A stretch of DNA of 64,000 nt from Flavobacterium soyae (GCF_021245985.1 NZ_JAJQXA010000004.1:124001-188000); one strand, 5' to 3'. Numbered from the stretch's first letter, positions 35,938 to 64,000 are shown. The notes: a model not told the origin generated them from the letters alone. Translations and numbers: made by a program.

Positions 35938-36903
35938 TTATAAGTTTTCGACCAGAATCCATGCATCTGGATTTTCGCCTTTTTGAATTTCTTTCTGTGC
36001 TTTTTCGGCTTCTCCCATTGTAGCATAACTTCCGTACAAAACCGGGAATAAACCATGCTTGTTTTCGCCAAGCATTCGCGCATTATAACCATCTTTAATT
36101 AATTGGTTATAGGCTTTTTTTGCATTTGCTTCGCTTCTAAAAGCGCCTGCCATAATATGATACGGCATAAGTTTTACTTCTGCAGTTTCTACTTTTGCAG
36201 AATCAACGGCTAAAGTTACAGCTGGCAGGGGATTTTGAATTACGAATGTTGCTTCCTGAATCTTGTTCTGAACTTTTTTCTGAACATTGCTTTCTACAAC
36301 AAGTGTTTGTGCAGCAATTTGGTTTTGGTATAAAGGATAACCGATACTTCCGGTAACTCCTAAACCAAGAACAAAAATTGCAGCATACCTTAGATAAGGT
36401 CTTGACGATCTAACTTCTTCATCTTCATATAATGCAGTAGTTTCTCTTTCTGCGATTTGTTCGATTTTCTTTTCGAAAATTTCTCTTTTCACCATTGGAG
36501 AAACAAACGGACTTAATCCGAATGAAGTCGATAAATAGTTAATTTGATCGTTTGGTGAAAAAATAATATTGTTCTCAGAATTTAGACGAAGATCTCCAAT
36601 ATTTTTCAGGCTGATAACGCCATTTTCTTCAAGTGTCTGTCTCCAGTTTTGTACTTCAAAAGCGATACCATTTACAGCAGTTCCGTAAGATATGTTTTCT
36701 GCCTGGGCAACATGATTTGCCAGCAGTCCGTCATTGTTTTTTAAGCGGCTGTTGAAAAAAACCGTTTTCTTCGGTGGAAAAAACGAATTCGTACTTTCAT
36801 TCAGCTGTGCTGATTGAATTTCGGTTAAAAATGCCCCAAATCCAGGAACCGTTACACACTGATAACGATATAATAATTGCGCGATATAAGTTTCGATTTT
36901 CAT
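35938..36903 (-). CDS. HU-CCDC81 and SPOR domain protein
   Basis: 321 residues. The N-terminal HU-like/CCDC81 domain (MKIETYIAQLLYRYQCVTVPGFGAFLTE ... LISLKNIGDLRL-like text at 90-110) is followed by a membrane helix (about 176-196, RYAAIFVLGLGVTGSIGYPLY) and a C-terminal SPOR domain (YHIMAGAFRSEANAKKAYNQLIKDGYNARMLGENKHGLFPVLYGSYATMGEAEKAQKEIQ). SPOR domains bind denuded peptidoglycan glycans, and this architecture is common in Bacteroidota. It probably localises to septal or remodelled peptidoglycan. A promoter lies directly before the start. Confidence 0.9.
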   Translation of the reverse strand: MKIETYIAQLLYRYQCVTVPGFGAFLTEIQSAQLNESTNSFFPPKKTVFFNSRLKNNDGLLANHVAQAENISYGTAVNGIAFEVQNWRQTLEENGVISLKNIGDLRLNSENNIIFSPNDQINYLSTSFGLSPFVSPMVKREIFEKKIEQIAERETTALYEDEEVRSSRPYLRYAAIFVLGLGVTGSIGYPLYQNQIAAQTLVVESNVQKKVQNKIQEATFVIQNPLPAVTLAVDSAKVETAEVKLMPYHIMAGAFRSEANAKKAYNQLIKDGYNARMLGENKHGLFPVLYGSYATMGEAEKAQKEIQKGENPDAWILVENL

Positions 36904-48481: not shown

Positions 48482-48892
48482 ATGGCTCTATCTACAAAAA
48501 AATATTTATATATATTCTTTTTGGTTTCTCCTATTTCGTTAAGTCTGTATGCACAAAGTCCAGCAATTGAAAAACCTGCGTTTTCTGCCGTTTCTGACTG
48601 CAAATTAACGACAATTGAGATAAATCAAAACAACGAATCAGCGGATAAATGTATCGGCAAATTAGATAATTCTAATCAGTTAATAGTAGGGCTGTCCACC
48701 CCCAAGGACAGCCTTACTATGGCAGCTGATGTGAAAGATCAGTCTTCGGATTGTGAAGAAAATTCATTGATTGGTTCTACTTCAATTCTTGCAAAAGATA
48801 TTATTGAGAACTATAAATATGATTTTTCGGAAACATTCATAGATATCTTGTTTTTTGAGCGTATAGACTTAGCAAGAACACGTACTATATGA
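48482..48892 (+). CDS. Exported hypothetical protein preceding sprC
   Basis: 136 residues with a signal-peptide-like start (MALSTKKYLYIFFLVSPISLSLYAQ) and no recognisable domain. Its TGA overlaps the sprC ATG (ATGA, 48889-48892), so translation is coupled. Residues 68-80 (LIVGLSTPKDSLT) are encoded by a strong GC-rich hairpin. Confidence 0.72.
   Translation: MALSTKKYLYIFFLVSPISLSLYAQSPAIEKPAFSAVSDCKLTTIEINQNNESADKCIGKLDNSNQLIVGLSTPKDSLTMAADVKDQSSDCEENSLIGSTSILAKDIIENYKYDFSETFIDILFFERIDLARTRTI
48683..48720 (+). other. GC-rich RNA hairpin inside the gene before sprC
   Basis: ATAGTAGGGCTGTCC (48683-48697) pairs with GGACAGCCTTACTAT (48706-48720) with one mismatch, around the 8-base loop ACCCCCAA. 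It is much more GC-rich than its AT-rich surroundings. Confidence 0.65.
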
Positions 48893-50367
48893 TTCGAAAA
48901 ACTACTTTATCTTTTTTTAAAGTTTTCATTTTATTTAGTATAATTCTCTTTACTAAATCGCGTACCTATGCTCAAACAGCAATAGTTGGGCAGCAGCTTC
49001 CTTTCGATAGAATTTGTGCTGGTTTAATAGTAAACGGAACACCTTTTAATGAATACTACGCCACATTCAGCTACTTAAATTTTCCGGCAGGTACTACTTT
49101 TGAAGTAGAACTTTCAGATGATTTGGGAAGTTTTACAACCCCTACTGCTACAACAAAAATTTCGTTTGTAGATGATCCTTCAGCGCAGCAGCAAACCATA
49201 AAGTTTGCTATTCCTACAGATTTAAAAGGATCAAACACATACAGCCTTCGCGTTAAAAGTAATACAGCAACGCCTGTTTACAGTCAGAGGTTTAAGAATT
49301 TCCAGGATCAGACATCGTTTCCTGCTTTTTACAGAATTTATACAGATAAATTTTTTATTAATAATAAAGAAGCCAATGCAACTATTTGTTCAGGCGGAAA
49401 TTTAAGTCTTTCAGTTTACAACCCAACACCTGCAGATGTACCTTCATCTCCTGCCAATTATCCAAATTTAACGTATAAATGGTATAAAGATGATGTATTA
49501 ATTGCTGGACAAAGTGGTACAACGTTAGTGGCAAATGCCCCGGGGGTTTATTATGCCCAGATAAATTATGGAGGCTGTGATGATGATAACTTTAGTTCTA
49601 ATCGTGTTACAGTAGTATCTTCAAGCGGAGGATCTGCAGTAACGGTAGATTCCAGCTTAGGAAATCCTTTTTGTTCAAACGGATCAGGGACTGTTTTAAC
49701 GGCAACATCGGGTAACAGTTACGTTTGGAAAAAAGATGGTGTTGTAATTGCACAAACATCTCGCAGTATTACTACAAATGAATCCGGTATTTATTCAGTT
49801 GAGGTTGATTTTGGCGGTTGTAAAGCAACAGGAAGTATTGATTTAAAAAGCAATAGTTTCACGGCGAGTATAGATGTTCCGGATACTTATGAGCTTAAAG
49901 AAGGAGAAACATTAAATGTATCTGTAACTACTGATGCAGTGACTCCAAAATTCGAATGGTTTTTAAATAATAATGCAATAAGCGGAGCCAGCAGCGCAAG
50001 TTATCTGGTAGCCGTAAGAGGTCTTTATAAAGTTAAAATTTCACAGGAATCAGGATGTATAGCTTCAAAAGAATTTACATTTAGAGTTACTTCAGAAAAT
50101 GATGCAAAAACCTCAGTTATTCCAAATATTGTTAAGCTGGGCGGCACTTATCCTTACTGGAATATCCCAGATGTTTATAAAACGGCGTCGACCAAACTAA
50201 TAATTTTAAGTTCAAATGGAGAGGTGATGTATGATGATGTTGGCAGCAATTACGATCCGGAAAGCAGCTTTTTAATAAAAGATTTTAAAAATGTAAATCC
50301 AGTTTATTACTATGTCATTCAATCAGACACAGGTGAAAAAAAAGGATCAATAACTGTGATTAAATAA
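48889..50367 (+). CDS. sprC: SprC-like gliding protein with Ig-like repeats and CHU_C-type tail
   Basis: 492 residues. A signal peptide (about 1-28, ending TYAQ) precedes Ig-like beta domains that carry TYKWYKDDVLIAGQSGTTLVANAPGVYYAQI and SYVWKKDGVVIAQTSRSITTNESGIYSVEVDF, a PKD/Ig pattern. The C-terminal 80 residues (VIPNIVKLGGTYPYWNIPDVYKTASTKLIILSSNGEVMYDDV ... YYYVIQSDTGEKKGSITVIK) match the type B (CHU_C-like) sorting domain of type IX secretion. In F. johnsoniae sprC is needed for full SprB display. Overlaps sprD by one base (TAATG). Confidence 0.85.
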   Translation: MIRKTTLSFFKVFILFSIILFTKSRTYAQTAIVGQQLPFDRICAGLIVNGTPFNEYYATFSYLNFPAGTTFEVELSDDLGSFTTPTATTKISFVDDPSAQQQTIKFAIPTDLKGSNTYSLRVKSNTATPVYSQRFKNFQDQTSFPAFYRIYTDKFFINNKEANATICSGGNLSLSVYNPTPADVPSSPANYPNLTYKWYKDDVLIAGQSGTTLVANAPGVYYAQINYGGCDDDNFSSNRVTVVSSSGGSAVTVDSSLGNPFCSNGSGTVLTATSGNSYVWKKDGVVIAQTSRSITTNESGIYSVEVDFGGCKATGSIDLKSNSFTASIDVPDTYELKEGETLNVSVTTDAVTPKFEWFLNNNAISGASSASYLVAVRGLYKVKISQESGCIASKEFTFRVTSENDAKTSVIPNIVKLGGTYPYWNIPDVYKTASTKLIILSSNGEVMYDDVGSNYDPESSFLIKDFKNVNPVYYYVIQSDTGEKKGSITVIK

Positions 50368-53300
50368 TGAAGAAAATTTTACTATTCATAACTTTATTTT
50401 ACGGTTTTTCTAATGTACTCTATTCTCAGGACCAAAATGAGAATGGAGTTGTTTCGTTTTCATTACCTATCAGAAATTCATTAAAGTTTAATAGATATTT
50501 AATAAACCCTGCATTTAGTTTTGTTCGCGAAACAAACGCATATGCAAGTTTCTATAATAAAAGACAATGGGTGCAGTTTGACAATGCACCGCAAACATAT
50601 TTAGCCAATTACTCTGGACGATTCAGAGAAAATGAAGCTTTTGCAATTGGTTTATTCCAGCAAAATTATGGTTTAATGACCGTTTTTGGCGGAGTTGTCA
50701 ATTTTGCTCATAATATCGTTTTGCAGGAAGACAGTAACCTTACTTTTGGTTTAAACGCGGGCGTATACCAAAGCGGTTTAGACAAAGGAAAAATTATATC
50801 TGATGATACGGATATTTTAAACGGGGATTATCCCTCAAATACAATGCTTACCGTAAATCCGGGGATTAACTACGGAACAGCGTTTATGGATTTTGGATTA
50901 TCGGTAAACAATTTAATTCTTTACAATTTTGGTTCAGGTGTTGTAAAAGAAGATCCGGAAAGAGCAATCGAATTACATGCCATGTACACCGGCTACATTG
51001 ACAGTTATGGTTTTTTTGAACAAAGTAAATTTTCAGGAATTGTAAAAACAGAAATTAAAAAAGATAAAACGGTTCTTTCAGGGCTTGCAATGCTTTCGCT
51101 GAAACAAGGAGTTTGGGCGCAGGCAGGTTACAATACTCTATATGGAGTTTCTGCAGGTTTAGGGGTTAATATTTCACCTAGCATTGCAATCGAATATAAC
51201 TATGAAAGAGGAATGGGCAATTTTACAAATATGGGAGGTTCTCATGAATTTGCAATTGCTTATAAATTTAAAAATAGAAATTACTATTATGGTGATGATG
51301 AAGAGGGAGCATTAATAGATCCTTCGAGAACGACATCTAAACCAGTAATTGCCAAACCAAAAACAAATGCGGCTCCGGTAACAAGAGTAGATGGAGCTGA
51401 GAAAACGAGACTAGCAGCAGAAGCAAAAGCAAAAGCCGATGCCGAAGCAAAACAAGCCAGACTTGCCGCTGCAGAAAAAGTGAAGGCTGATGCCGATGCT
51501 GCTGCAAAAGCAAAATTAGAAGCAGATAACAAAGCTAAAGCTGATGCCGAAGCTCTTAAGATAAAATTAGCCGCCGATGCTAAAGCTAAAGCTGATGCAG
51601 CAGCAGCAGCAAGAGCGCAGACAGCAACAACAAACAGAGCCGTTGCTGCACAACAAAAAACACAAGCACAATTAGCTGCAGATAAAGCAAGAGCTGATGC
51701 TGAGGCAAGAAGAATAAAATTAGCTGCAGATAATAAAGCCAGAGTGGACGCTGCTGCCGCTGCGAGAGTACAAGCTCAAGCAAACAAACCATCAGCAACA
51801 GCTGCACAAAAAACACAAGCACAATTAGCTGCAGATAAAGCAAGAGCTGATGCTGAAGCATTAAAAATAAAACTTGCGGCCGATGCGAAAGCTAAGGCAG
51901 ATGCAGAAGCTAAAGCGAAACAAGCAACTGCTGCAACGCCGCCGGCTCCGCAAAAAACACAAGCACAATTAAATGCTGAAAAAGCTAAGGCAGATGCAGA
52001 GGCACTTAAAATAAAGCTAGCTGCAGATGCGAAAGCTAAAGCTGATGCTGCAGAGGCAAAACGTAAAGCAGATGCTAAAGCAAAAGCAGAAGAGGCAGAC
52101 TTACAATCAATCTTGGCTGCAGATGCTAAAGCAAAAGCAGATTCTGATGCGCTTCAGGCTAGATTAGCCGCAGAAGCTAAAGCAAAAGCCGCTTCTGAAG
52201 CAAAAACAAAAGCTTCGATTGATGCTGCAAATAGAGCTAAAGCGGCAGCTGCTGCTAAAGCAAAAGCTGCAGAAGAAGCAGCCCTAAAAGAAAAATTAGC
52301 AGCTGATGCAAAAGCGAAAGCAGATGCAGAAGCTAGACAAGCAATAATAGCTGCAGAAGCTAAAGCAAAAGCCGATGCTGAAGCATTAAAAATAAAATTA
52401 GCTGCCGATGCAAAAGCGAAAGCCGACGCAGAAGCCCAGGCTAAGTTAGCTGCAGAAGCAAAAGCAAAAGCAGATGCAGAAGCACTTCAAGCTAAATTAG
52501 TTGCTGATGCAAAAGCGAAAGCAGATGCAGAGGCTCAGGCAAAACTTGATGCAGAAGCAAAAGCAAAAGCAGATGCAGAAGCACTTCAGGCTAAACTAGC
52601 AGCCGACGCCAAAGCAAAAGCCGATGCTGAAGCATTACAGGCAAAACTTGTAGCAGAAGCAAAAGCTAAGGCTGACGCAGAAGCTCTACAAGCAAAACAA
52701 GCTGCCGATGCAAAAGTGAAAGCTGACGAAGAGGCACGTCAGGCTAAATTAGCAGCTGATGCAAAAGCAAAAGCTGATGCTGAAGCAGAAAAAACGAGAT
52801 TAGCTGCAGAAGCGAAAGCAAAAGCAGATATGGAAGCTTTACAAGCGAAATTAATTGCTGACGCAAGAGTTAAAGCCGATGCAGAAGCAACTGCAAAAGC
52901 AAAAGCAGAAGCAGAAGAAAAACAATTAAGAGAAGCTGAAGAAGCACGTCAGGCTAAATTAGCGGCTGACGCAAAAGCTAAGGCCGATGCAGAAGCACTT
53001 CAAGCGAAATTAGCAGCCGACGCAAAAGCTAAGGCCGATGCAGAAGCACTTCAAGCGAAATTAGCAGCCGACGCAAAAGCTAAGGCAGATGCAGAAGCAT
53101 TACAAGCTAAACTTGCTGCAGACGCAAAAGCAAAAGCCGATGCAGAAGCATTACAGGCTAAGTTAGCTGCGGAGGCAAAAGCTAAGGCCGATGCAGAAGC
53201 ACTTCAAGCAAAATTAGCTGCTGATGCCAAAGCAAAAGCCGACGCAGAAGCACTTCAAGCAAAATTAGCAGCAGACGCCAAAGCAAAAGCTGATGCAGAA

Positions 53301-54914
53301 GCATTACAGGCTAAGTTAGCTGCGGACGCAAAAGCAAAGGCTGATGCAGAAGCATTACAGGCTAAGTTAGCTGCGGACGCAAAAGCTAAGGCCGATGCAG
53401 AAGCACTTCAAGCAAAATTAGCTGCTGATGCCAAAGCTAAAGCTGACGCAGAAGCATTACAAGCTAAGTTAGCAGCTGATGCCAAAGCAAAAGCCGACGC
53501 AGAAGCACTTCAAGCAAAACTAGCAGCTGACGCCAAGGCAAAAGCTGACGCAGAAGCATTACAAGCTAAGTTAGCAGCTGATGCCAAAGCAAAAGCCGAC
53601 GCAGAAGCATTACAGGCTAAGTTAGCTGCTGATGCCAAAGCAAAAGCCGACGCAGAAGCACTTCAAGCAAAATTAGCAGCTGATGCCAAAGCAAAAGCTG
53701 ACGCAGAAGCACTTCAAGCAAAATTAGCAGCTGATGCCAAAGCAAAAGCTGACGCAGAAGCACTTCAAGCAAAATTAGCAGCTGATGCCAAAGCAAAAGC
53801 CGACGCAGAAGCACTTCAAGCAAAATTAGCTGCTGATGCCAAAGCAAAAGCTGACGCAGAAGCATTACAAGCTAAGTTAACGGCAGATGCAAAAGCTAAG
53901 GCAGATGCAGAAGCGGCAGAAAAACAAAAAGCTGACGAAGAAGCAAGAAAATTAAAAGAAGAAGAAGAACGTCAGGCAAGACTAGCCGCAGAGAAAGCAA
54001 AAGCTGATGCAGAAGCAGCAGCGGCCAGAGCTGCAGCAGCGTCAAAAGATGAAACAGCAAAAGCTATTGAAAGCTTAACTCAGTCAATTGAAAGTTCAGG
54101 TAAAACACAAAATGATTTATTAGATCAGTTTAAATCGACGATAGCTAATAAACAAAAAGACCTGAATGATTTAAAAGAAGAGAACGACTTAAGTGAAAAA
54201 GGTATTTATAAAGAACCAAAACCTTTCAAAAGTGTAGCTGCAGAAAACAGTCAGATAGAAGCTTTAAAATCACAGCTGGCAGATGCTAGTAAAGCACAGA
54301 AAGACGAGATTGCTAAGCTGACGAATTTATATAACGAAAGACTTAAAAAAGTTCCAAACAAAAATGATGCTTTAAACAAAGCTTATCTTGAGAAGATAAA
54401 CGAATTGAAAGCAGCGCAGTTAAAAATGGAACTGGAAGGTGCAGCATTACTTGCCGATTTAGAGCGTATTAAAGCTGAAACTGAAATTGAGAAAAAACGT
54501 AGAATTAAGCGTGCGGCATACGAAAATGATCAAGGTAGATATGCTCAGGATTTAGCTGCCCTTAAACGTATTAAGGAAACAACGAAAGTAAGCAGTACAC
54601 CGCTCACAGCTGCAGATTTTGATTTTGGTGAAGACCAGTCAAATATGCAGATTATTAAGAATATTAAAAATTCTGAAAGTGGTTATTATATGATTCTTGC
54701 AGTACACAGCAGTGTTGAAAAACGTGATGAGTTCTTAACGAAAGCTGTTGCATCTGGAGTTTCAAATATTAATTTCTTTTACAATATAACAACAAGTAAA
54801 TATTATATCTATTACGAGAAATTCGATGGTCTGCAAGAAGCAACTAAGGCATTAGAAGCTAAAGGAAAATCACCATACAACGGAAAAATGGCAATCGTAA
54901 AAGTGGAGAATTAA
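50367..54914 (+). CDS. sprD: SprD-like protein: PorP/SprF barrel, Ala/Lys-rich helix, SPOR-like end
   Basis: 1515 residues. After a signal peptide, residues 25-315 resemble the PorP/SprF outer-membrane family (FNRYLINPAFSFVRETNAYASFYNKRQW ... HEFAIAYKF). Residues about 343-1222 are an Ala/Lys/Asp/Glu-rich TolA-like helix; 860-1186 hold about 19 near-identical 17-residue units (DAKAKADAEALQAKLAA). The C-terminal 300 residues form a coiled coil (about 1225-1390) and a SPOR-like domain (YYMILAVHSSVEKRDEFLTKAV...). In F. johnsoniae SprD supports SprB display in gliding. A straight single helix of this length would reach about 130 nm, far beyond periplasm thickness, so it must fold back or lie sideways. 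Confidence 0.88.
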   Translation: MKKILLFITLFYGFSNVLYSQDQNENGVVSFSLPIRNSLKFNRYLINPAFSFVRETNAYASFYNKRQWVQFDNAPQTYLANYSGRFRENEAFAIGLFQQNYGLMTVFGGVVNFAHNIVLQEDSNLTFGLNAGVYQSGLDKGKIISDDTDILNGDYPSNTMLTVNPGINYGTAFMDFGLSVNNLILYNFGSGVVKEDPERAIELHAMYTGYIDSYGFFEQSKFSGIVKTEIKKDKTVLSGLAMLSLKQGVWAQAGYNTLYGVSAGLGVNISPSIAIEYNYERGMGNFTNMGGSHEFAIAYKFKNRNYYYGDDEEGALIDPSRTTSKPVIAKPKTNAAPVTRVDGAEKTRLAAEAKAKADAEAKQARLAAAEKVKADADAAAKAKLEADNKAKADAEALKIKLAADAKAKADAAAAARAQTATTNRAVAAQQKTQAQLAADKARADAEARRIKLAADNKARVDAAAAARVQAQANKPSATAAQKTQAQLAADKARADAEALKIKLAADAKAKADAEAKAKQATAATPPAPQKTQAQLNAEKAKADAEALKIKLAADAKAKADAAEAKRKADAKAKAEEADLQSILAADAKAKADSDALQARLAAEAKAKAASEAKTKASIDAANRAKAAAAAKAKAAEEAALKEKLAADAKAKADAEARQAIIAAEAKAKADAEALKIKLAADAKAKADAEAQAKLAAEAKAKADAEALQAKLVADAKAKADAEAQAKLDAEAKAKADAEALQAKLAADAKAKADAEALQAKLVAEAKAKADAEALQAKQAADAKVKADEEARQAKLAADAKAKADAEAEKTRLAAEAKAKADMEALQAKLIADARVKADAEATAKAKAEAEEKQLREAEEARQAKLAADAKAKADAEALQAKLAADAKAKADAEALQAKLAADAKAKADAEALQAKLAADAKAKADAEALQAKLAAEAKAKADAEALQAKLAADAKAKADAEALQAKLAADAKAKADAEALQAKLAADAKAKADAEALQAKLAADAKAKADAEALQAKLAADAKAKADAEALQAKLAADAKAKADAEALQAKLAADAKAKADAEALQAKLAADAKAKADAEALQAKLAADAKAKADAEALQAKLAADAKAKADAEALQAKLAADAKAKADAEALQAKLAADAKAKADAEALQAKLAADAKAKADAEALQAKLTADAKAKADAEAAEKQKADEEARKLKEEEERQARLAAEKAKADAEAAAARAAAASKDETAKAIESLTQSIESSGKTQNDLLDQFKSTIANKQKDLNDLKEENDLSEKGIYKEPKPFKSVAAENSQIEALKSQLADASKAQKDEIAKLTNLYNERLKKVPNKNDALNKAYLEKINELKAAQLKMELEGAALLADLERIKAETEIEKKRRIKRAAYENDQGRYAQDLAALKRIKETTKVSSTPLTAADFDFGEDQSNMQIIKNIKNSESGYYMILAVHSSVEKRDEFLTKAVASGVSNINFFYNITTSKYYIYYEKFDGLQEATKALEAKGKSPYNGKMAIVKVEN
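52949..53926 (+). repeat. 51-bp tandem repeat array inside sprD
   Basis: About 19 units of 51 bp, each encoding ADAKAKADAEALQAKLA with mostly silent third-position changes. More diverged copies run on both sides. Multiple of 3, so unit gain or loss keeps the frame. Confidence 0.9.
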
Positions 54915-55041: not shown

Positions 55042-58000
55042 ATGAAAAAACCTACTACTTTAAAATTAGTTTTAACTGTATTATTTTTTATACAGAGTTT
55101 TATTATGTTCTCTCAAAAGAATTTCGCCCCTCGTTTTGACACGAGTTTAAAAGGTGACATGCTTTTGATAGGTAATAATATTTTGAATAGAGATAACAAT
55201 AGTAATGGCCAACGACCAAACGATGCCTTTAATTCTACGAACCAGAACAATAACGACCTTAATATGCAATATATTGATGTCGATAGTGATAATACCACTT
55301 TTAGTTCAAGTTCTGCTACTTTAGCTATTCCACAAACAAGTAGAGAATGTTATAAGATTGTTTACGCGGGGCTTTATTGGGCTGGTGTTTACAGTCAAGC
55401 TTCTGTAACTAATGGGACTGTAAATCGTGCCAATTTAGGTTCGATTAAGTTTAAGCTTCCTGGCCAGACTACTTATAATGATATTACAGGGTCGTTAATT
55501 TACGATTACTATCCTACAACGTCAAACGGTAGTCAGATGCCGTATGCATATTACTATGATGCAACAGCATTAGTGCAGGCATTAGCAAATCCTGAAGGAG
55601 TTTACACCGCAGCAAATATTATTTCAGGAAGAGGTGGTATAAATGGTGGTTTTGCAGCGGGCTGGAATTTATTTATAGTATATGAGGATCCAAAATCGTC
55701 TGCAAAATATATTACATCTTTTGACGGTCTTAGTTGGATCCAGGCATCCAGCGCACCGGTAACTTATGATATTTCTGGATTCAAAACTATTCCAACAGGA
55801 GTTGTAAAAGCAAAATTAGCTTTTGCTGCTTTAGAGGGAGATGTTAATCTTACAGGAGATAAATATTCTATAAATAATACAGATATTTTTACTGCAGAGC
55901 GCCCAGTTAATAACTTCTTCAATAGTACAATTAATGACACTAACGGGCCTTATACAGCGAGAACTCCAAACAGCGGTAATACACTTGGTTTTGAAGCAGG
56001 TATTATAAACCTTAATAATGCTTCAAATTCAATTATTAAAAACAACGATACTTCGGCACAATTAAAGCTTAGTACTGTAGGAGATGGTTATGGACTTTTC
56101 TTCAATGCTTTTAACGTTGAAATTATTGAACCGAAAATTGTTTTAACTAAAATTGTAAAAAATAATGCCGGGGTAGATATTGGAGGCCAAAATGTTACTT
56201 TAGGCCAGCAGTTAAATTATGAAATTGGTTTTAAAAATACAGGTAATGATAATGCCACCGAGTTTACGATTAGAGACCAGCTGCCTATTAATATTATTTT
56301 TAATTATCCGGCAGATATTGTTTCGTTACCTACAGGGGTAACGGTACAAAGTTATAATGCTGCAACAAGAAATATTGTTTTTGCAGTAAACAACAACGTT
56401 GTTAAAGTTGGTGATCCTGAAAAAATTATTAGTTTCAAGGTTCAGGTTGTTCCTGATTGTCAAAGTTTAAGCGAGGCTTGTTCTAACAGTATTGACAACT
56501 CTGCTTATGCTACATACAAAGGGCAGCAAAACACTAGTTTTATAATTTCTGATGACCCGAGTGTTAATACCAATACAGGATGTATTTTAGTTCCAAAAGC
56601 TACAAACTTTTTAGTTGGGGTAGATGGTTGTAAATATACTTCGAATGTTACTTTATGTGGGGAGAACATTAATTTAACAGCTGCTAATGGTTATACATCT
56701 TATACGTGGTATAGTGATGAAGCAAGAACAAATCAAATAGGTACAGGACAAACATTAAATGTAAAAGATCCTGGAACGTATTATGTTTACAATCTTGCAG
56801 CTGCACCTTGTAGATCAATTTATCAATCATTTGTTGTAACAAGATTTGGAAGCACAGTAGAGAATCCGGTAATACCATTTGCAGATCAGGTAGTAACTTG
56901 TTCTAATGATGGAAAAAAATTACCAAATATTTTCTTGTGCGGTTCAAATGCAGTCAGACAAATTACTACAAGCATTTCTGATGCAACAAGTATTGTTTGG
57001 GAAAAATTAGATGAAGGAAGCTGTGCTGCTGTAACGAATCAGAATTGTGCCAACGAAAATACAGCCTGTACGTGGGCCAGTGTAGGTACCGGACAAAATT
57101 ATACAGCAAACCAGGCGGGACAATTTCGAGTAACATTAAATTATGCGGGAGGATGTTTCAACCGTTTTTATTTTAATGTTTATACGAATTTGTTAACTCC
57201 AACAGAAACGCATAAGGATATTATTTGTGGTGTTTCCGGAAGTATTACGATTGGCGGAGTGCCGGCAGGGTACGAATATGCTATCAGTACAGATCCTAAT
57301 GGAACGATTGGAGCATATCAGGCAAGTAATACTTTTAATATTACAAACCCAAATTCATATACTGTTCACATTAGACAAGTAGGTGTAACTACTAATCCAT
57401 GTATTTTTACTGTTCCAAATATTCTTATTAGAAAAGTAGATTTACAGATTAGCACAGCTGTTACGCAGCCAACTTGTTATGGAGATAAAGGAAGTATAAA
57501 AGTTGGCGCTCTTAATATTGATCCGCAATATTATTATTACTTATATAATAATGCGACAAATGTCCTTGTTAACAGTGCTGGTCCTATTGCGGCTTCAGAT
57601 TATACTTTTGCAAATTTAAATCCCGGAATTACATATAGGGTAAGAGTTACAAATGCAGCTGTTGGTGGTACACCATCCCCGACTTGTGATGTGTCAAGTG
57701 TTATTCCTATAAATAATATTGCCGCTCCTCTAGTTGCAACGGCTGCCTTAACAACTCCGCTTACGGCATGCAGCGATGGTAAAATTACTTTATCAGGTTC
57801 TGGAGGAACAGCTCCATATTTCTTCTTTGTAAACGGGTCTGCTACTTTCCTTACTTCAAATGAAATTACTTTTACAACAGCAGGAACATACAATATTCGT
57901 TTAGTTGATTCTAATAACTGTGAGGCAACAACATCGATTACAGTTACAGGAAATCCTAAACCAGTTTACACTGTAACAAATACTGAAATTAATTGTAACG

Positions 58001-61000
58001 GTGGTACAGCTCAAATAAACATTAATGTTACAAACGCAAACGGATATACTTTACAATATAGTATTGATAATGGGGCTACATTTAGCAGTACTCCAGTTTT
58101 CTCTAATCTAACAGGCGGAACTTACAATGTTGTAGTTAGATATACTTTATCAGGAACAACTTGTACTGACCCTGCTACGAATATAACAATTACAGCTCCT
58201 GCAAATGCATTAAGTGCTTCTGCGGGTGTTTCTGAATTAGCAGGTTGTGATCCTTCTGGTAATGGTTTTGGTAAAGTACGTATTACAAACCCTCAAGGAG
58301 GAACTCCACCTTATACTTATAGTTTTGATGGAGGTACAACTTACGGAACTTCGAATGAAGCTTACGTAGCACCGGGAACTTATACACTTTATGTTAGAGA
58401 TTCAAAAGGCTGTACATTCGCAATGCCGGGTGTTGTTTTAGATCCAAAACCGGCAGACCCTACAATTTCAGTTGACCCTCCGGTATTTAATTGTAACGGA
58501 ACTGCAACAAGTACAGTAACGGTAACAAATGGAAGCGGAGCAAATTATAGTTATGAATATTATTTAGATAATGTTTTAAATACAAATACTCCTCCGAATG
58601 TTTTCTTAAATGTTCCATCGGGATCACATACGGTAAGCGTAAAATATAATTTGATTTCAGTACCAACTTATAGTAATTTATTACAAGAAGATTTTGGTTC
58701 TGGAGGAACTACAACAACTCCGGGTATTGCGGCGGCTTACTGTTTCAACGACCAAAGAGTAAACCCGCCATATACTTGTTCTTTAAATGGAACTCCAACT
58801 CGTTCTGTTGAAGATAACCAATATTCAGTTACGAGTTTCTTTTGGAGAAGTGATGATCCTGCTAGTAATAACACAGGAGCATGGTACCACTTTAAAGATC
58901 ATACAACAAACCCTAATAACTTAGCAGGTGTTGGAGATGCAAACGGAAGATATTTATTAGTAAACATTGGAGGAGCAGCTGGACCTTACGGAGTTTTATA
59001 TAGCAAACCAATTATTGATGTTATCCCAAATCAGCCGGTAATGGTCTCTTTGTATGTGGGTAACTTATTAAATACTGGTGCTAGTGGAGCAGCTCCAATT
59101 GTAAGATTTGAGCTGGTTGATGGTTCTGGTAATGTTGTAGCTACTCAGGATACGGGTAAAATTGCCGAAGCAGCAAATGACCCAAATAGAACAAAATGGG
59201 TTCCGATAAACATTTCACTAAACCCTGGAAATAACACAAACCTTACTTTTAGAATTCGTTCCGGAAGTATTGAATATGGTGGAAATGACTTAGTAATTGA
59301 TGATATCTGGGTACGTCAGATTCCAAAATCGTGTATTACTCAAAAAGATTTCCCTATTGTTATCGACAGTAATAAAGCATTTTCGGCTTCTATAACAGGA
59401 GTTAAAAATGTTACTTGTAATGGAGGAAACAATGGAGAAATTACATTGGCAGCACAAAACTTTAATCTTCCTTATGGATTCGATTATTCTATGAATAATG
59501 GAGCTACTTGGGTGAACTCTAAAGTATCTCCTGTAACAGTAACAGGTTTAACAAGTCAAACATACGCAATTCAGATACGTTTCAACAATAGCGCATCGAC
59601 TTGTAGTTTCCCATTTTCGCAGCCTATTACTGCGCCTGCAGCATTAGCGGTTACAGCACAGGTTACGGCTCAGCCTACTTGTACAAACGGTGCTTCGATT
59701 ACGGCTGCAGTAACTGGAGGAACACCAAGTTATCAATATGAGTTGAGACAATCTAACGGAACTACAGTTGTAGTACCATTTCAAACTTCAAATGTATTTA
59801 CAAATGTTGCTTCAGGAACTTATACTGTGGTGGTTAGAGATACAAACTCTTGTACTTCTCCAGCTTCTGCAACTGTAAATATTACTTCTCCAATAGCGCC
59901 TACAGCTTCTTTGGCAGCGAGTTCAGATTTATGTTATGATACTACTAATCAATCAACACTTGTTGTTACAGCTACAGGAACAGGAACTTTAACTTATAGT
60001 TTAGACGGCGGGGCTGCACAAACATCAAATACATTTACGAATGTAGGCCCTGGTACACATAACATTGTTGTAACAGACAGTAATAATTGTACAGCAGCAG
60101 TTAGCAATATTATAATTGCCCCAGAATTACAAGGAAGTGCAACAATATCTAAAACTTTAGATTGTACTACATCTCCAAACGCTGCTATTACAGTTTCTAT
60201 TACTGGAGGTACAAGTGCCTTTACTTATAAAGTTAAAAAAGGCTCTGCAGCTTACGGCTCCAGTAATCCTGTAACCGGTAATTCATTTGTTTATACTGCT
60301 ACATCAGCAGATACTTATACTTTCGAAATTACAGACTCAAAAGGTTGTGTTACTACTGTTAATGCAATAGTCAGCCCTATTACAAATCCTACCGTTACTG
60401 CCAACCCAACACAAATTACTTGTAATGGTTTAACAAATGGAAGTGTACAGTTAATAGGTGCTGGTGGTTCAGGAGGATATCAATATAATTTTAATAATGC
60501 AGGCTGGTCATCAACTTCTTTATACTCTAATTTAAGTCCAAATGTTGATTATACTTATTTGGTTAGAGATAGTAAAGGATGTACTTCTACAAGTGCTATT
60601 ATAAGATTAACTCAACCAACTGCTGTATCAGGAACAATAACTGCTACAACTATTAAATGCAGCGGTACAGGTACAGTACCTGCAGTAGTTACGGTTAATG
60701 GCGCTGGGGGAACAGGTGCTTATAGTTATAGCTTTAATGGAACAGCAAACTTTACTAGTACAAATACATTTTCTACATCTACGGCTGGTGTAGTTACTGC
60801 TTATATTAGAGACGCAAATAATTGTCAGATAGGGCCTCTATCGGTTACTATTGATGCTTTAGACAGAATTACAGGAATTAACATAACAGATAGCGGATAT
60901 GATTGTTCTACAAATCCTCCTGGAGGTCATGTAAATATCGCTGCAGTAAAAGTAGATGTTTCTGCACCAATTCGTTATCAGATAATTTCTGGTCCTGCAG

Positions 61001-64000
61001 GATATGATTCTGCTATAAATTCAGATGGCGAATTTAAATCGTTAACACCTGGTAATTATGTTTTTCAGGCAACTGATATTAAAACAGGCTGTTCTTTCAC
61101 ATTGCCTTACACAGTAAATGGAACTCCGGATATTATAACTGGTGGTTCTGCGTTAACAAATATTCAATGTAATGGAGGAACAGGAACACTTCAGTTTACT
61201 GTAAACGGTGTTAAAAACAGAGGTTATGATTACGCTATAACAAATGCGGGAGGAACTATTATTCAATCAGGAAATAACGTTTCTGAAACAACTACAGTAA
61301 TAAATGTTACTGCTGCTCAGCCAGCAGGTACATATACAATTACTGCAACAGACAGATTAACTAAATGTCAGTCAGCATTTTCAGTTACAATAACTCAGCC
61401 AAGTTCTCTTGTAGATTTTACTGCGGTTTCAACTAATGTAAATTGTAATAATGATAATTCACAAATTACGGTTACAGCAACTGGCGGTACACCAAATTAT
61501 ACTTACGCTTTTGCGAAAAACCCATCAACAGTTCCAACATCAACTTACGGAAATAGTGCTGTTTTAACAGTAGATACTAATTCTGGAGCTGATTTAGTTT
61601 GGGACGTTTATGTAAAAGACGTAAATGGCTGTACAACGAAAAAGACTGTTACTATTGTTAGTGATAATTTACCAAGTGTAACTGCGACAAACAATAATCA
61701 ATGTACAGGTTCAGGAAATTCATTTACGATTACTGCTTCGGGAACAGGATTGGCTCCGTTGACATACAGCATTGATGGAACTTCTTTCCAGACATCAAAT
61801 ACATTTACAGTACCAGCAGGAACTTATACAGTAACTGTAAAAGATAAAAATGGATGTACAGCAGCAACAGCAGCGGCATTAGTTATTTATCCGCAATTAA
61901 CGGCTGTAGGTTCTGTTACAAAAGAATTAGATTGTACAGTTACTCCAAACGCAACAATTACAGTTACAATTGGCGGCGGAAGATCTACATATACTTACAC
62001 AGTACAAAAAGGGGCAGGAGCTCCAAGTGCAGCAAGCACACCTATTACCGGACCAACATTTACTTATACAGTTACTTCTGCAAATGCAGATACTTATACA
62101 TTTGTAATTACAGATGCTAATGGATGTCAGGCTACAGCGGTAACTAAGGTAGACCCTATTACAAGTCCAACAGTTACGGCTGTTCAGACCAATGCAAGCT
62201 GTAATGGTGCTGCAGATGGTTCAGTTACTTTAACAGGTGCTGGAGGATCAGGCGGATTCACATACAGCAACAATGCGACGACAGGATTTACTACTAATCC
62301 GGTATTCAACGGATTGGCAGCTGGTTCATATACTTTTTATGTAAAAGACAGTAAAGGATGTACAGGATCAGCAGTGGTTACAATTACACAGCCAAGTACT
62401 TTGGCCGCAACAGTTGCTGTAGTTCCATTTACATGTAATGCTTCAAATGCTAAAGCAGCAGGAACAGTTACAATTAATGTTACTGCAGGTACAGGAACCG
62501 CTCCTTATGAATATAGTTTTAACGGAAGCGGATACAGCTCAAATAATGTATTAACATTAAATGACAACGGAGCTAATCAGACATATACATACGCTGTTAG
62601 AGATGCAAAAGGCTGTCCGGTAACAGGTTCAGGAACTTTATTGAGACTAAACCCTCCAACAGATTTAACTTTTGCTTCGCCAGCGGTTACTTGTACAGCT
62701 ACAACTACTACAGTTACAGTAACGGCTGTAAACGGAGTTGGAGCTTTACAATATGAGACAATTGCTCCATCGACAGTAATCATTGCTAAACAAACATCAA
62801 ACTCATTTGCAAACCTTGCACCTGGATCTTATACTTTCAGAGTTACAGATGCAAACGGATGTTATTATACAGAACCTTACATTGTAAATCCGGTTACTCC
62901 AATTGCAATTACAGGAAATAAAACAAGTGATGTTTTATGTAGAGGAGGTTCAACAGGATCTGGAATTTATACAGTTTCTGGTAATGCCACAGTTGGTGCT
63001 TATACATTTACTTTAACAGCAGGAACTTTAGGTTCAGGAACATTAACACAATCAGGAAATACATTAACATTATCAAATGTTGCTGCAGGAACTTATACTG
63101 TTCAGGTTACAGATACTGCAACAGGATGTACTAATTCTGCAAGTATTGTTATTGGCCAGCCAGCGGCTGCTCTAGCAATTACTACAGCAGTAGGAACTAA
63201 TGTAAATTGTAATAATGATAATTCACAAATTACAATTACTGCAACAGGCGGCACACCAAATTATACATACGCTTTCGCGAAAAGCCCGTCAACAGTACCG
63301 TCATCGGCTTATGGCGCTAGTAATGTTTTAACAGTAGATACTAATTCTGGAGCTGATTTAGTTTGGGATGTTTACGTGAAAGATGCAAATGGCTGTATTG
63401 CTAAATCTACAGTTACAGTTATTTTGGATGCAATGCCGGCAATAACTAACGTAACGGTTAATAATCAATGTACTGCTTCTGGAAGCGGATTCACTATTAC
63501 TGCAACGGCTACAGGTTTAGCACCATTAACTTATGGAATTGCCGGTTCAACAGGAGCATTCCAGACAAGTAATATTTTTACCGTAGCTGCAGGAACTTAT
63601 ACAGTTTATGTAAAAGATAAAAACGGTTGTATTACTTCGGCTCCGGCTGCAACAGTAGTTTACCCGCAATTAACAGCAGCAGGTACAGTTACAAAAGAAC
63701 TAGATTGTACAGCTGCTCCAAACGCAACAATTACAGTTACAATTGGCGGCGGTAGATCTACATATACTTACACAGTACAAAAAGGTGCTGGTACACCAAG
63801 TGCTGCAAGTGCACCTATTACGGGGCCTACATTTACATACACAGTAACGCCTGCAAATGCAGATACTTATACATTTGTAATTACAGACTCTAACAGCTGT
63901 ACAAGAACTGCAGTTGTTACAGTTTCTCCAATTACAAATCCAACAGTTACGGCTGTTCAGGTAAATGCAAGCTGTAATGGCGCTGCAGATGGTTCAGTTA
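55042..64000 (+). CDS. sprB: SprB-like giant surface adhesin (partial, runs past window end)
   Basis: Open for 2986 codons to the window edge. ATG 55042 (MKKPTTLKLVLTVLFFIQSFIMFSQ) gives a signal peptide. Residues 25-360 are a beta-rich N-terminal part; 362-480 look DUF11-like (ALTKIVKNNAGVDIGGQ); about 530-590 an Ig-like domain; from about 800 come SprB-type repeats of roughly 70-90 residues, each with Cys and text such as CNGG...YTYSIDNG...TYTVTVKD. Residues about 1211-1433 (58676-59340) form a non-repeat jelly-roll-like domain (FGSGGTTTTPGIAAAYCF). SprB is the adhesin moved on the cell surface during gliding, exported by the type IX system. The C-terminal tail and sprF lie outside. Confidence 0.93.
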   Translation, partial: MKKPTTLKLVLTVLFFIQSFIMFSQKNFAPRFDTSLKGDMLLIGNNILNRDNNSNGQRPNDAFNSTNQNNNDLNMQYIDVDSDNTTFSSSSATLAIPQTSRECYKIVYAGLYWAGVYSQASVTNGTVNRANLGSIKFKLPGQTTYNDITGSLIYDYYPTTSNGSQMPYAYYYDATALVQALANPEGVYTAANIISGRGGINGGFAAGWNLFIVYEDPKSSAKYITSFDGLSWIQASSAPVTYDISGFKTIPTGVVKAKLAFAALEGDVNLTGDKYSINNTDIFTAERPVNNFFNSTINDTNGPYTARTPNSGNTLGFEAGIINLNNASNSIIKNNDTSAQLKLSTVGDGYGLFFNAFNVEIIEPKIVLTKIVKNNAGVDIGGQNVTLGQQLNYEIGFKNTGNDNATEFTIRDQLPINIIFNYPADIVSLPTGVTVQSYNAATRNIVFAVNNNVVKVGDPEKIISFKVQVVPDCQSLSEACSNSIDNSAYATYKGQQNTSFIISDDPSVNTNTGCILVPKATNFLVGVDGCKYTSNVTLCGENINLTAANGYTSYTWYSDEARTNQIGTGQTLNVKDPGTYYVYNLAAAPCRSIYQSFVVTRFGSTVENPVIPFADQVVTCSNDGKKLPNIFLCGSNAVRQITTSISDATSIVWEKLDEGSCAAVTNQNCANENTACTWASVGTGQNYTANQAGQFRVTLNYAGGCFNRFYFNVYTNLLTPTETHKDIICGVSGSITIGGVPAGYEYAISTDPNGTIGAYQASNTFNITNPNSYTVHIRQVGVTTNPCIFTVPNILIRKVDLQISTAVTQPTCYGDKGSIKVGALNIDPQYYYYLYNNATNVLVNSAGPIAASDYTFANLNPGITYRVRVTNAAVGGTPSPTCDVSSVIPINNIAAPLVATAALTTPLTACSDGKITLSGSGGTAPYFFFVNGSATFLTSNEITFTTAGTYNIRLVDSNNCEATTSITVTGNPKPVYTVTNTEINCNGGTAQININVTNANGYTLQYSIDNGATFSSTPVFSNLTGGTYNVVVRYTLSGTTCTDPATNITITAPANALSASAGVSELAGCDPSGNGFGKVRITNPQGGTPPYTYSFDGGTTYGTSNEAYVAPGTYTLYVRDSKGCTFAMPGVVLDPKPADPTISVDPPVFNCNGTATSTVTVTNGSGANYSYEYYLDNVLNTNTPPNVFLNVPSGSHTVSVKYNLISVPTYSNLLQEDFGSGGTTTTPGIAAAYCFNDQRVNPPYTCSLNGTPTRSVEDNQYSVTSFFWRSDDPASNNTGAWYHFKDHTTNPNNLAGVGDANGRYLLVNIGGAAGPYGVLYSKPIIDVIPNQPVMVSLYVGNLLNTGASGAAPIVRFELVDGSGNVVATQDTGKIAEAANDPNRTKWVPINISLNPGNNTNLTFRIRSGSIEYGGNDLVIDDIWVRQIPKSCITQKDFPIVIDSNKAFSASITGVKNVTCNGGNNGEITLAAQNFNLPYGFDYSMNNGATWVNSKVSPVTVTGLTSQTYAIQIRFNNSASTCSFPFSQPITAPAALAVTAQVTAQPTCTNGASITAAVTGGTPSYQYELRQSNGTTVVVPFQTSNVFTNVASGTYTVVVRDTNSCTSPASATVNITSPIAPTASLAASSDLCYDTTNQSTLVVTATGTGTLTYSLDGGAAQTSNTFTNVGPGTHNIVVTDSNNCTAAVSNIIIAPELQGSATISKTLDCTTSPNAAITVSITGGTSAFTYKVKKGSAAYGSSNPVTGNSFVYTATSADTYTFEITDSKGCVTTVNAIVSPITNPTVTANPTQITCNGLTNGSVQLIGAGGSGGYQYNFNNAGWSSTSLYSNLSPNVDYTYLVRDSKGCTSTSAIIRLTQPTAVSGTITATTIKCSGTGTVPAVVTVNGAGGTGAYSYSFNGTANFTSTNTFSTSTAGVVTAYIRDANNCQIGPLSVTIDALDRITGINITDSGYDCSTNPPGGHVNIAAVKVDVSAPIRYQIISGPAGYDSAINSDGEFKSLTPGNYVFQATDIKTGCSFTLPYTVNGTPDIITGGSALTNIQCNGGTGTLQFTVNGVKNRGYDYAITNAGGTIIQSGNNVSETTTVINVTAAQPAGTYTITATDRLTKCQSAFSVTITQPSSLVDFTAVSTNVNCNNDNSQITVTATGGTPNYTYAFAKNPSTVPTSTYGNSAVLTVDTNSGADLVWDVYVKDVNGCTTKKTVTIVSDNLPSVTATNNNQCTGSGNSFTITASGTGLAPLTYSIDGTSFQTSNTFTVPAGTYTVTVKDKNGCTAATAAALVIYPQLTAVGSVTKELDCTVTPNATITVTIGGGRSTYTYTVQKGAGAPSAASTPITGPTFTYTVTSANADTYTFVITDANGCQATAVTKVDPITSPTVTAVQTNASCNGAADGSVTLTGAGGSGGFTYSNNATTGFTTNPVFNGLAAGSYTFYVKDSKGCTGSAVVTITQPSTLAATVAVVPFTCNASNAKAAGTVTINVTAGTGTAPYEYSFNGSGYSSNNVLTLNDNGANQTYTYAVRDAKGCPVTGSGTLLRLNPPTDLTFASPAVTCTATTTTVTVTAVNGVGALQYETIAPSTVIIAKQTSNSFANLAPGSYTFRVTDANGCYYTEPYIVNPVTPIAITGNKTSDVLCRGGSTGSGIYTVSGNATVGAYTFTLTAGTLGSGTLTQSGNTLTLSNVAAGTYTVQVTDTATGCTNSASIVIGQPAAALAITTAVGTNVNCNNDNSQITITATGGTPNYTYAFAKSPSTVPSSAYGASNVLTVDTNSGADLVWDVYVKDANGCIAKSTVTVILDAMPAITNVTVNNQCTASGSGFTITATATGLAPLTYGIAGSTGAFQTSNIFTVAAGTYTVYVKDKNGCITSAPAATVVYPQLTAAGTVTKELDCTAAPNATITVTIGGGRSTYTYTVQKGAGTPSAASAPITGPTFTYTVTPANADTYTFVITDSNSCTRTAVVTVSPITNPTVTAVQVNASCNGAADGSV
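61432..64000 (+). repeat. Higher-order repeat of about 1.77 kb in sprB
   Basis: 61432 onward recurs at 63196 onward (offset 1764), and 61891 onward recurs at 63664 (offset 1773). Each block includes several SprB repeats. The copies are nearly identical in places and the array continues past the window. Confidence 0.85.

Follow-up and report, generated by a model that had tools for sequence, protein, structure and literature searches.

A central question in the gliding of Bacteroidota is how surface proteins become linked to a track that moves. In Flavobacterium johnsoniae, sprC, sprD, sprB and sprF are said to form one operon in this order, as reportedly described by Rhodes et al. in 2011. 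The sole coupling worked out in the literature we searched is the cysteine link of SprF and PorG; in SprF, a disulfide joins the CxC motif to GldK, which belongs to the moving track (PMC12635249). PorE, in turn, is a peptidoglycan-binding partner of PorP, and according to a proposal by Gorasia et al., carriers coupled to PorE stay in place whereas those lacking it can move (PMC9143113). Here we analyze a 64,000-nucleotide stretch from Flavobacterium soyae (GCF_021245985.1 NZ_JAJQXA010000004.1:124001-188000; the window), which encodes a PorP/SprF-type carrier with neither feature. Coordinates are given on the plus strand unless stated otherwise. The open reading frame at 50367-54914 is SprD, an already-known gliding-motility protein, here with an ATG start, 1515 amino acids (aa) and 0 cysteines. 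We favor, with roughly even confidence, a reading in which SprD is a dedicated outer-membrane carrier and anchor of the surface protein SprC, the end of its tail contacting the gliding track non-covalently rather than peptidoglycan.

The features on which this reading builds, namely the barrel, the spacer, the predicted SPOR fold, the strict pairing with SprC and the lack of both a cysteine and a PorE neighbor, are either directly seen or strongly supported. A putative signal peptide, read from the sequence, covers residues 1-20 (50367-50426; MKKILLFITLFYGFSNVLYS-Q). Residues 37-299 (50475-51263) form a PorP/SprF-type outer-membrane barrel that, judged by its profile matches, is complete and a member of this family: PF11751 matches over profile positions 10-273 of 273 (E 8.1e-44, 150.6 bits with a cut-off of 22.3), and TIGR03519 scores 183.8 bits with a cut-off of 90.55. 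The position between sprC and sprB, the conserved barrel, and a C-terminal region sharing 81-99% identity with relatives identify the protein as the SprD ortholog. The original prediction was therefore correct in naming both SprD and its barrel. When lolA1 is mutated, the SprD level in the outer-membrane proteome was reported to drop to 0.05-fold (PMC11885536). Cysteine is lacking not only in the window protein but in 66 of 66 relatives, which leaves no CxC motif, and the genes next to sprD are sprC and sprB, with no PorE-like gene among them.

A comparison of carriers puts this combination into context. The genome containing the window encodes eight PorP/SprF proteins, five of which have a PRFF end and an adjoining PorE-like gene, two a CxC end, and one, SprD, neither CxC nor PorE. 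The PorE-like neighbors carry TPR, PD40 and CarboxypepD_reg domains. Among 37 carriers, taken as the best-scoring loci of seven genomes, 25 have PorE next door, 8 a CxC tail without PorE, 2 are SprD-type and 2 are unassigned; because only best-scoring loci were taken, SprD-type carriers are under-counted. A CxC tail and a PorE neighbor never occurred together in these 37. The three-way split into PorE neighbor, CxC tail, and spacer plus SPOR fold yields a rule, readable from sequence, for predicting whether a surface protein should be fixed or mobile. The presence of GldJ was considered as a discriminator and discarded, GldJ being found in all 121 genomes. SprD itself is known; the barrel-spacer-SPOR architecture and the split were not found in the literature searched, and no open-access paper joining SPOR with SprF and PorP turned up, while literature beyond may hold the idea. 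As a separate observation, a second CxC-tailed PorP/SprF protein (L006; L291:3524-4513), with the tail ...DCNCPAIN, lies beside a carbonic-anhydrase-like gene and has close counterparts at L383, L389 and L394. It is a candidate for a second track-linked carrier.

The far end of SprD comprises two conserved parts. Residues 1225-1422 (54039-54632), missing from the description in the original prediction, contain three predicted helices, at about residues 1225-1405, and the motifs ENDLSEKGI and EKKRRIKRA. Residues 1423-1515 (93 aa; 54633-54911) form the domain to which an AlphaFold2 (AF2) model, structural matches and profile matches assign a SPOR fold. The AF2 model of these last 93 residues has the order b-a-b-b-a-b with a predicted local distance difference test score (pLDDT) of 81.4, the models being single chains from shallow alignments (81-99% identity). 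With VIA-align, the SPOR chains of DamX (Z 6.6), RlpA (6.3 and 6.2), DedD (6.0) and CwlC (4.9) were recovered; the top chain was 6ozd, a Burkholderia protein (Z 8.4 over residues 83-167), and the next unrelated chain reached 3.9. Foldseek gave weak matches, none with E below 0.001, with the SPOR domains of CwlC and DedD on top. A profile of the SprD end domain aligned over its full length with a Flavobacteriales Pfam SPOR profile in hhalign (E 3.6e-9 for the pair). The SPOR-like end of the original prediction is thus upheld as a predicted fold, but it falls short of the Pfam cut-off: window SprD has no match to PF05036 at that level, and 3 of 16 relatives match with a best E of 0.17. Distant SprD homologs from other Flavobacteriales families do carry barrel, spacer and SPOR domain in a single chain, and there the SPOR domain passes the Pfam cut-off. 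Searching Protein Data Bank sequences with the C-terminal alignment returned chance helical matches only, and with the SPOR-like domain alone none. Taken together, these predictions suggest that the end domain is SPOR-related and SPOR-folded.

The residues by which RlpA contacts glycan are Q270 and F274 (PMC6895207). Neither is kept in SprD, where the Gln position holds Ile or Val in 53 of 53 sequences and the Phe position His in 51 of 53; relatives with other spacers retain an aromatic residue at the latter in 17 of 17 cases. Among the Pfam SPOR domains of these bacteria, 13 of 18 likewise have no Gln, so that the replacements are not decisive against peptidoglycan binding. The C-terminal region recurs outside SprD as well. 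A 634-aa protein of the same genome (G000 C83, L040:2023-3927), located between guaA and a second LysM-type gene, combines four LysM domains and a helical region with a SprD-like C-terminal region, and most SprD-containing Flavobacterium genomes encode a counterpart. Peptidoglycan could already be bound by the LysM domains of this protein, and the shared region may hint at another partner. Independently of this, another protein of the window (35938-36903, minus strand) contains a Pfam-level SPOR domain (47.7 bits).

Between barrel and end lies a spacer of 914 aa (residues 311-1224; 51297-54038) that is rich in Ala, Lys, Asp and Glu, with 42% Ala, 19% Lys/Arg and 18% Asp/Glu. Pro or Gly interrupts it at residues 309-343, hence in its first ~35 residues, and again at 475 and 525-528, and the longest Pro/Gly-free run extends over residues 529-1244 (716 aa; 51951-54098). 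At 0.15 nm per residue these lengths correspond to ~137 nm for 914 aa and ~107 nm for 716 aa as a single helix. The original prediction had envisaged one helix of about 880 residues, too long when straight to simply cross the periplasm. A very long helix-forming spacer is present and the argument on length holds, but the Pro/Gly breaks mean that it is not one piece, and the residue count has to be corrected to the values given here. Charged residues are ordered along the chain: Lys/Arg is followed by Asp/Glu at i+4 136 times compared to 31 in shuffles, and Asp/Glu by Lys/Arg 64 times compared to 31. Hydrophobic periodicity at 3.5-3.67 was not detected in the spacer, which does not qualify as a canonical coiled coil. 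Judged by sequence, it shows the pattern expected of a lone charged α-helix.

Much of this putative helix is built from a 51-bp tandem array (52248-53914; 32.6 copies) that encodes the 17-aa unit ADAKAKADAEALQAKLA. Within 18 consecutive units (residues 867-1172), 16 are identical as protein despite 16 distinct DNA versions, a conservation far beyond chance. The proportion of differences is 0.59 at synonymous (pS) and 0.006 at nonsynonymous sites (pN), so that pN/pS is about 0.01. With a near-invariant protein and strongly diverged synonymous sites, the array must be old and constrained and is no fresh product of slippage. The constraint may act on helix and charge, and exchange between the repeat copies possibly contributes to the similarity of the units.

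The original prediction had suggested comparing helix length among strains. Among relatives the variation is wide: the spacer ranges from 618 to 1310 aa across 66 complete SprD loci in which barrel and end domain are conserved. It measures 263-1190 aa in the wider genus, mostly 140-290 aa in other genera and about 70-1310 aa overall. In draft genomes the length of the repeat is possibly collapsed, and contigs stop within it (e.g. L227, L230, L231); in complete single-contig genomes the spacer still spans 608-1009 aa. Its composition is stable across the genus, with Pro and Gly at about 2% or less each, and its repeat unit differs by lineage (10, 14, 15, 16, 17 or 38 aa). Some lineages have Asn/Gly-rich, mixed or short spacers instead of the Ala/Lys helix. 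A second group of genera joins the barrel to one to three SPOR-like domains through different spacers, among them a helix of several hundred residues with a 14-aa repeat that was gained independently (L165) and an Asn/Ser-rich spacer of 437 aa (L286). Because spacer types are interchangeable among lineages, the giant helix is a lineage-specific expansion and not a fixed strut. Judging from sequence conservation, selection preserves SprC along with a partner in which a spacer links the barrel to a SPOR-fold end. The interchangeable spacers offer a natural test of what a giant helix does in an envelope far thinner than the helix is long.

Three simple explanations of the spacer length were tried and rejected. 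As a ruler for the length of SprB, it showed a raw Spearman correlation of 0.73 over 43 loci, but with independent contrasts on 42 of them r dropped to 0.29 (p 0.06) with opposite trends in subgroups, and the correlation mostly reflects shared ancestry. SprD length did not follow SprC length either (Spearman -0.12, p 0.39). A match between the 17-aa repeat (2.55 nm) and the subunit spacing of the track was dropped because the repeat period differs between lineages. SprB itself ranges among relatives from 1505 to 11173 aa, the longest occurring in one genome (G112; L310, L316). Another genome (G430; L174, L345, L346) holds two sprC-sprD-sprB sets, one combining a long spacer with a SprB of 5897 aa and the other a 285-aa spacer with a SprB of 2955 aa.

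SprD is strictly paired with SprC. The two genes are directly adjacent, sprC upstream, in 66 of 66 complete loci with gaps of -1 to 1 bp, and the pairing extends to other genera and other families of Flavobacteriales. When the lists are compared by eye, one set of 42 among the 121 Flavobacterium genomes has both SprC and SprD, and three further genomes pair a giant SprC with a SprD of the second tail type. An alignment of 18 SprC members carries CHU_C in 17 and TIGR04131 in 15. From these sequence data, SprC is probably a type B substrate of the type IX secretion system and the cargo of SprD. The giant SprC proteins (L285, L286, L287; three Flavobacterium genomes) reach ~2000-2250 aa and contain many immunoglobulin-like (Ig-like) repeats.

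How the other end of the carrier is read depends on whether SprC moves. In a passage that cites a thesis, imaging of HaloTag-SprC is reported to show it riding the gliding track (PMC12635249). If so, its carrier has to be coupled to the track by other means than a cysteine and cannot be bonded permanently to peptidoglycan, since a leash of 107-137 nm is too short to keep up with movement along the cell. In the reading we favor, the SprD barrel would hold SprC on the surface, as SprF does for SprB. On the periplasmic side, where the topology of SprF by analogy places the tail, the spacer would replace the short cysteine tail of SprF, in this clade mostly as a charged Ala-rich helix. It would have to lie along the envelope, serving as an adjustable tether and not as an exact ruler. 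The conserved helical segment and the SPOR-fold domain would provide a non-covalent contact in the periplasm, whose most likely partner is the track or a protein associated with it; peptidoglycan would be a less likely partner and, if contacted, only transiently. As a cysteine-free protein with a probable cargo that is reported to be mobile, SprD would be a natural counter-example to the cysteine link. Taking this further, SprD might represent a third, non-covalent track coupling in which a SPOR-fold domain was turned from a wall binder into a binder of the track or a track partner, on a spacer of up to ~200 nm if fully helical. This extension we put forward as tentative. Several points weigh against the favored reading. 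SPOR domains are known as peptidoglycan binders, and no evidence connects this end of SprD with a track protein. The connection of SprC to SprD is drawn from the order of the genes, their joint occurrence and the type B rule, and window SprC has no CHU_C or TIGR04131 match, its copy being degenerate. The movement of SprC goes back to a single paper that in the passage concerned cites a thesis (PMC12635249), and rails are seen in each spr mutant (PMC9870892). Because rails form without SprD, it is no building block of the track, which rules it out as a rail component.

The main rival is the tether between outer membrane and cell wall proposed in the original prediction, because the SPOR fold is among those used for wall binding. 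Here the end domain would bind peptidoglycan, the helix would serve as leash, and one chain would do the job of PorP and PorE. A barrel, a long spacer and a SPOR-fold end do lie in one chain, as that proposal demanded. The fold predicted by AF2 and recovered in the structural matches, the distant homologs above the Pfam cut-off and the lack of a PorE gene adjoining sprD all agree with it, and the binding of peptidoglycan by PorE as partner of PorP provides a precedent (PMC9143113). Wall binding as such is not established, however: the Pfam cut-off is missed and the glycan-contacting Gln and Phe are replaced, a point softened by the frequent Gln loss noted above. In addition, SprC is reported to travel on the track, at least in the passage mentioned, and a leash of ~107-137 nm is too short for journeys of micrometers. 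A SPOR-like domain without Gln and Phe, together with a SprC reported on a moving track, makes a permanent tether doubtful, and we see the wall tether as possible but not probable. The giant spacer could also be a nearly neutral expansion of a linker, any sufficiently long tail being functional and its length uninformative. The variation from 618 to 1310 aa next to a conserved barrel and end domain and the lack of significant tracking of SprB length after phylogenetic correction fit this view; the strong amino-acid-level constraint within the repeat and the stable, Pro- and Gly-poor composition do not, and we consider it rather unlikely. Alternatively, the helix itself could run along the GldJ/K/N track and touch it weakly at many points, so that multivalent binding takes the place of the SprF disulfide. 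The reported mobility of SprC with a probable carrier devoid of cysteine, the unit kept at the protein level and the slightly positive net charge of the spacer speak for such contacts. A track-binding surface would, however, be expected to be better conserved than a repeat whose length and unit vary by lineage, in spacers that may be Asn/Gly-rich or mixed and extend from about 70 to 1310 aa. This makes the multivalent helix improbable.

The locus lies in a Flavobacterium genome with F. panici and Flavobacterium sp. CF108 as close relatives. The gene sprC (48889-50367) encodes a 492-aa Ig-like surface protein with an Ig_7 match, and its stop codon shares 1 base with the sprD start. It is preceded, with a 4-base overlap, by the gene of a secreted 136-aa protein (48482-48892) for which profile searches returned no family match. 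Downstream, the 5' part of sprB (55042-63999) codes for a giant gliding adhesin of 7006 aa in total and runs past the window, beyond which sprF follows; its product ends in NCPCTQSPVHD and thus in a CPC tail.

The closest known relative is SprD of F. johnsoniae, with the same gene and operon order; the CI04 locus is 91% identical in the C-terminal region and differs in its spacer of 1310 aa compared to 914 aa in the window. Like SprD, SprF is a PorP/SprF barrel whose gene lies in this operon next to that of a type B surface protein, but it has a short CPC tail with a disulfide bond to GldK (PMC12635249), whereas SprD has a giant tail and no cysteine. PorP with PorE of P. gingivalis and the other PorE-coupled carriers similarly have a barrel by which a type B protein is anchored and which may extend as far as the wall. 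There, the wall binder is the separate PorE with an OmpA-like domain, while SprD carries its SPOR fold in the same chain. In SPOR proteins a disordered or low-complexity linker precedes the domain (PMC6895207). SprD shares such a linker and the predicted fold with DamX, DedD, FtsN, RlpA and CwlC; unlike these, it is anchored by an outer-membrane barrel, lacks the key Gln and Phe and gives no sign of a role in division. For the spacer, the likeness is to domain II of TolA, by description a long periplasmic helix rich in Ala, Lys, Glu and Asp. TolA, however, is anchored in the inner membrane, and its helix is several times shorter than that of SprD.

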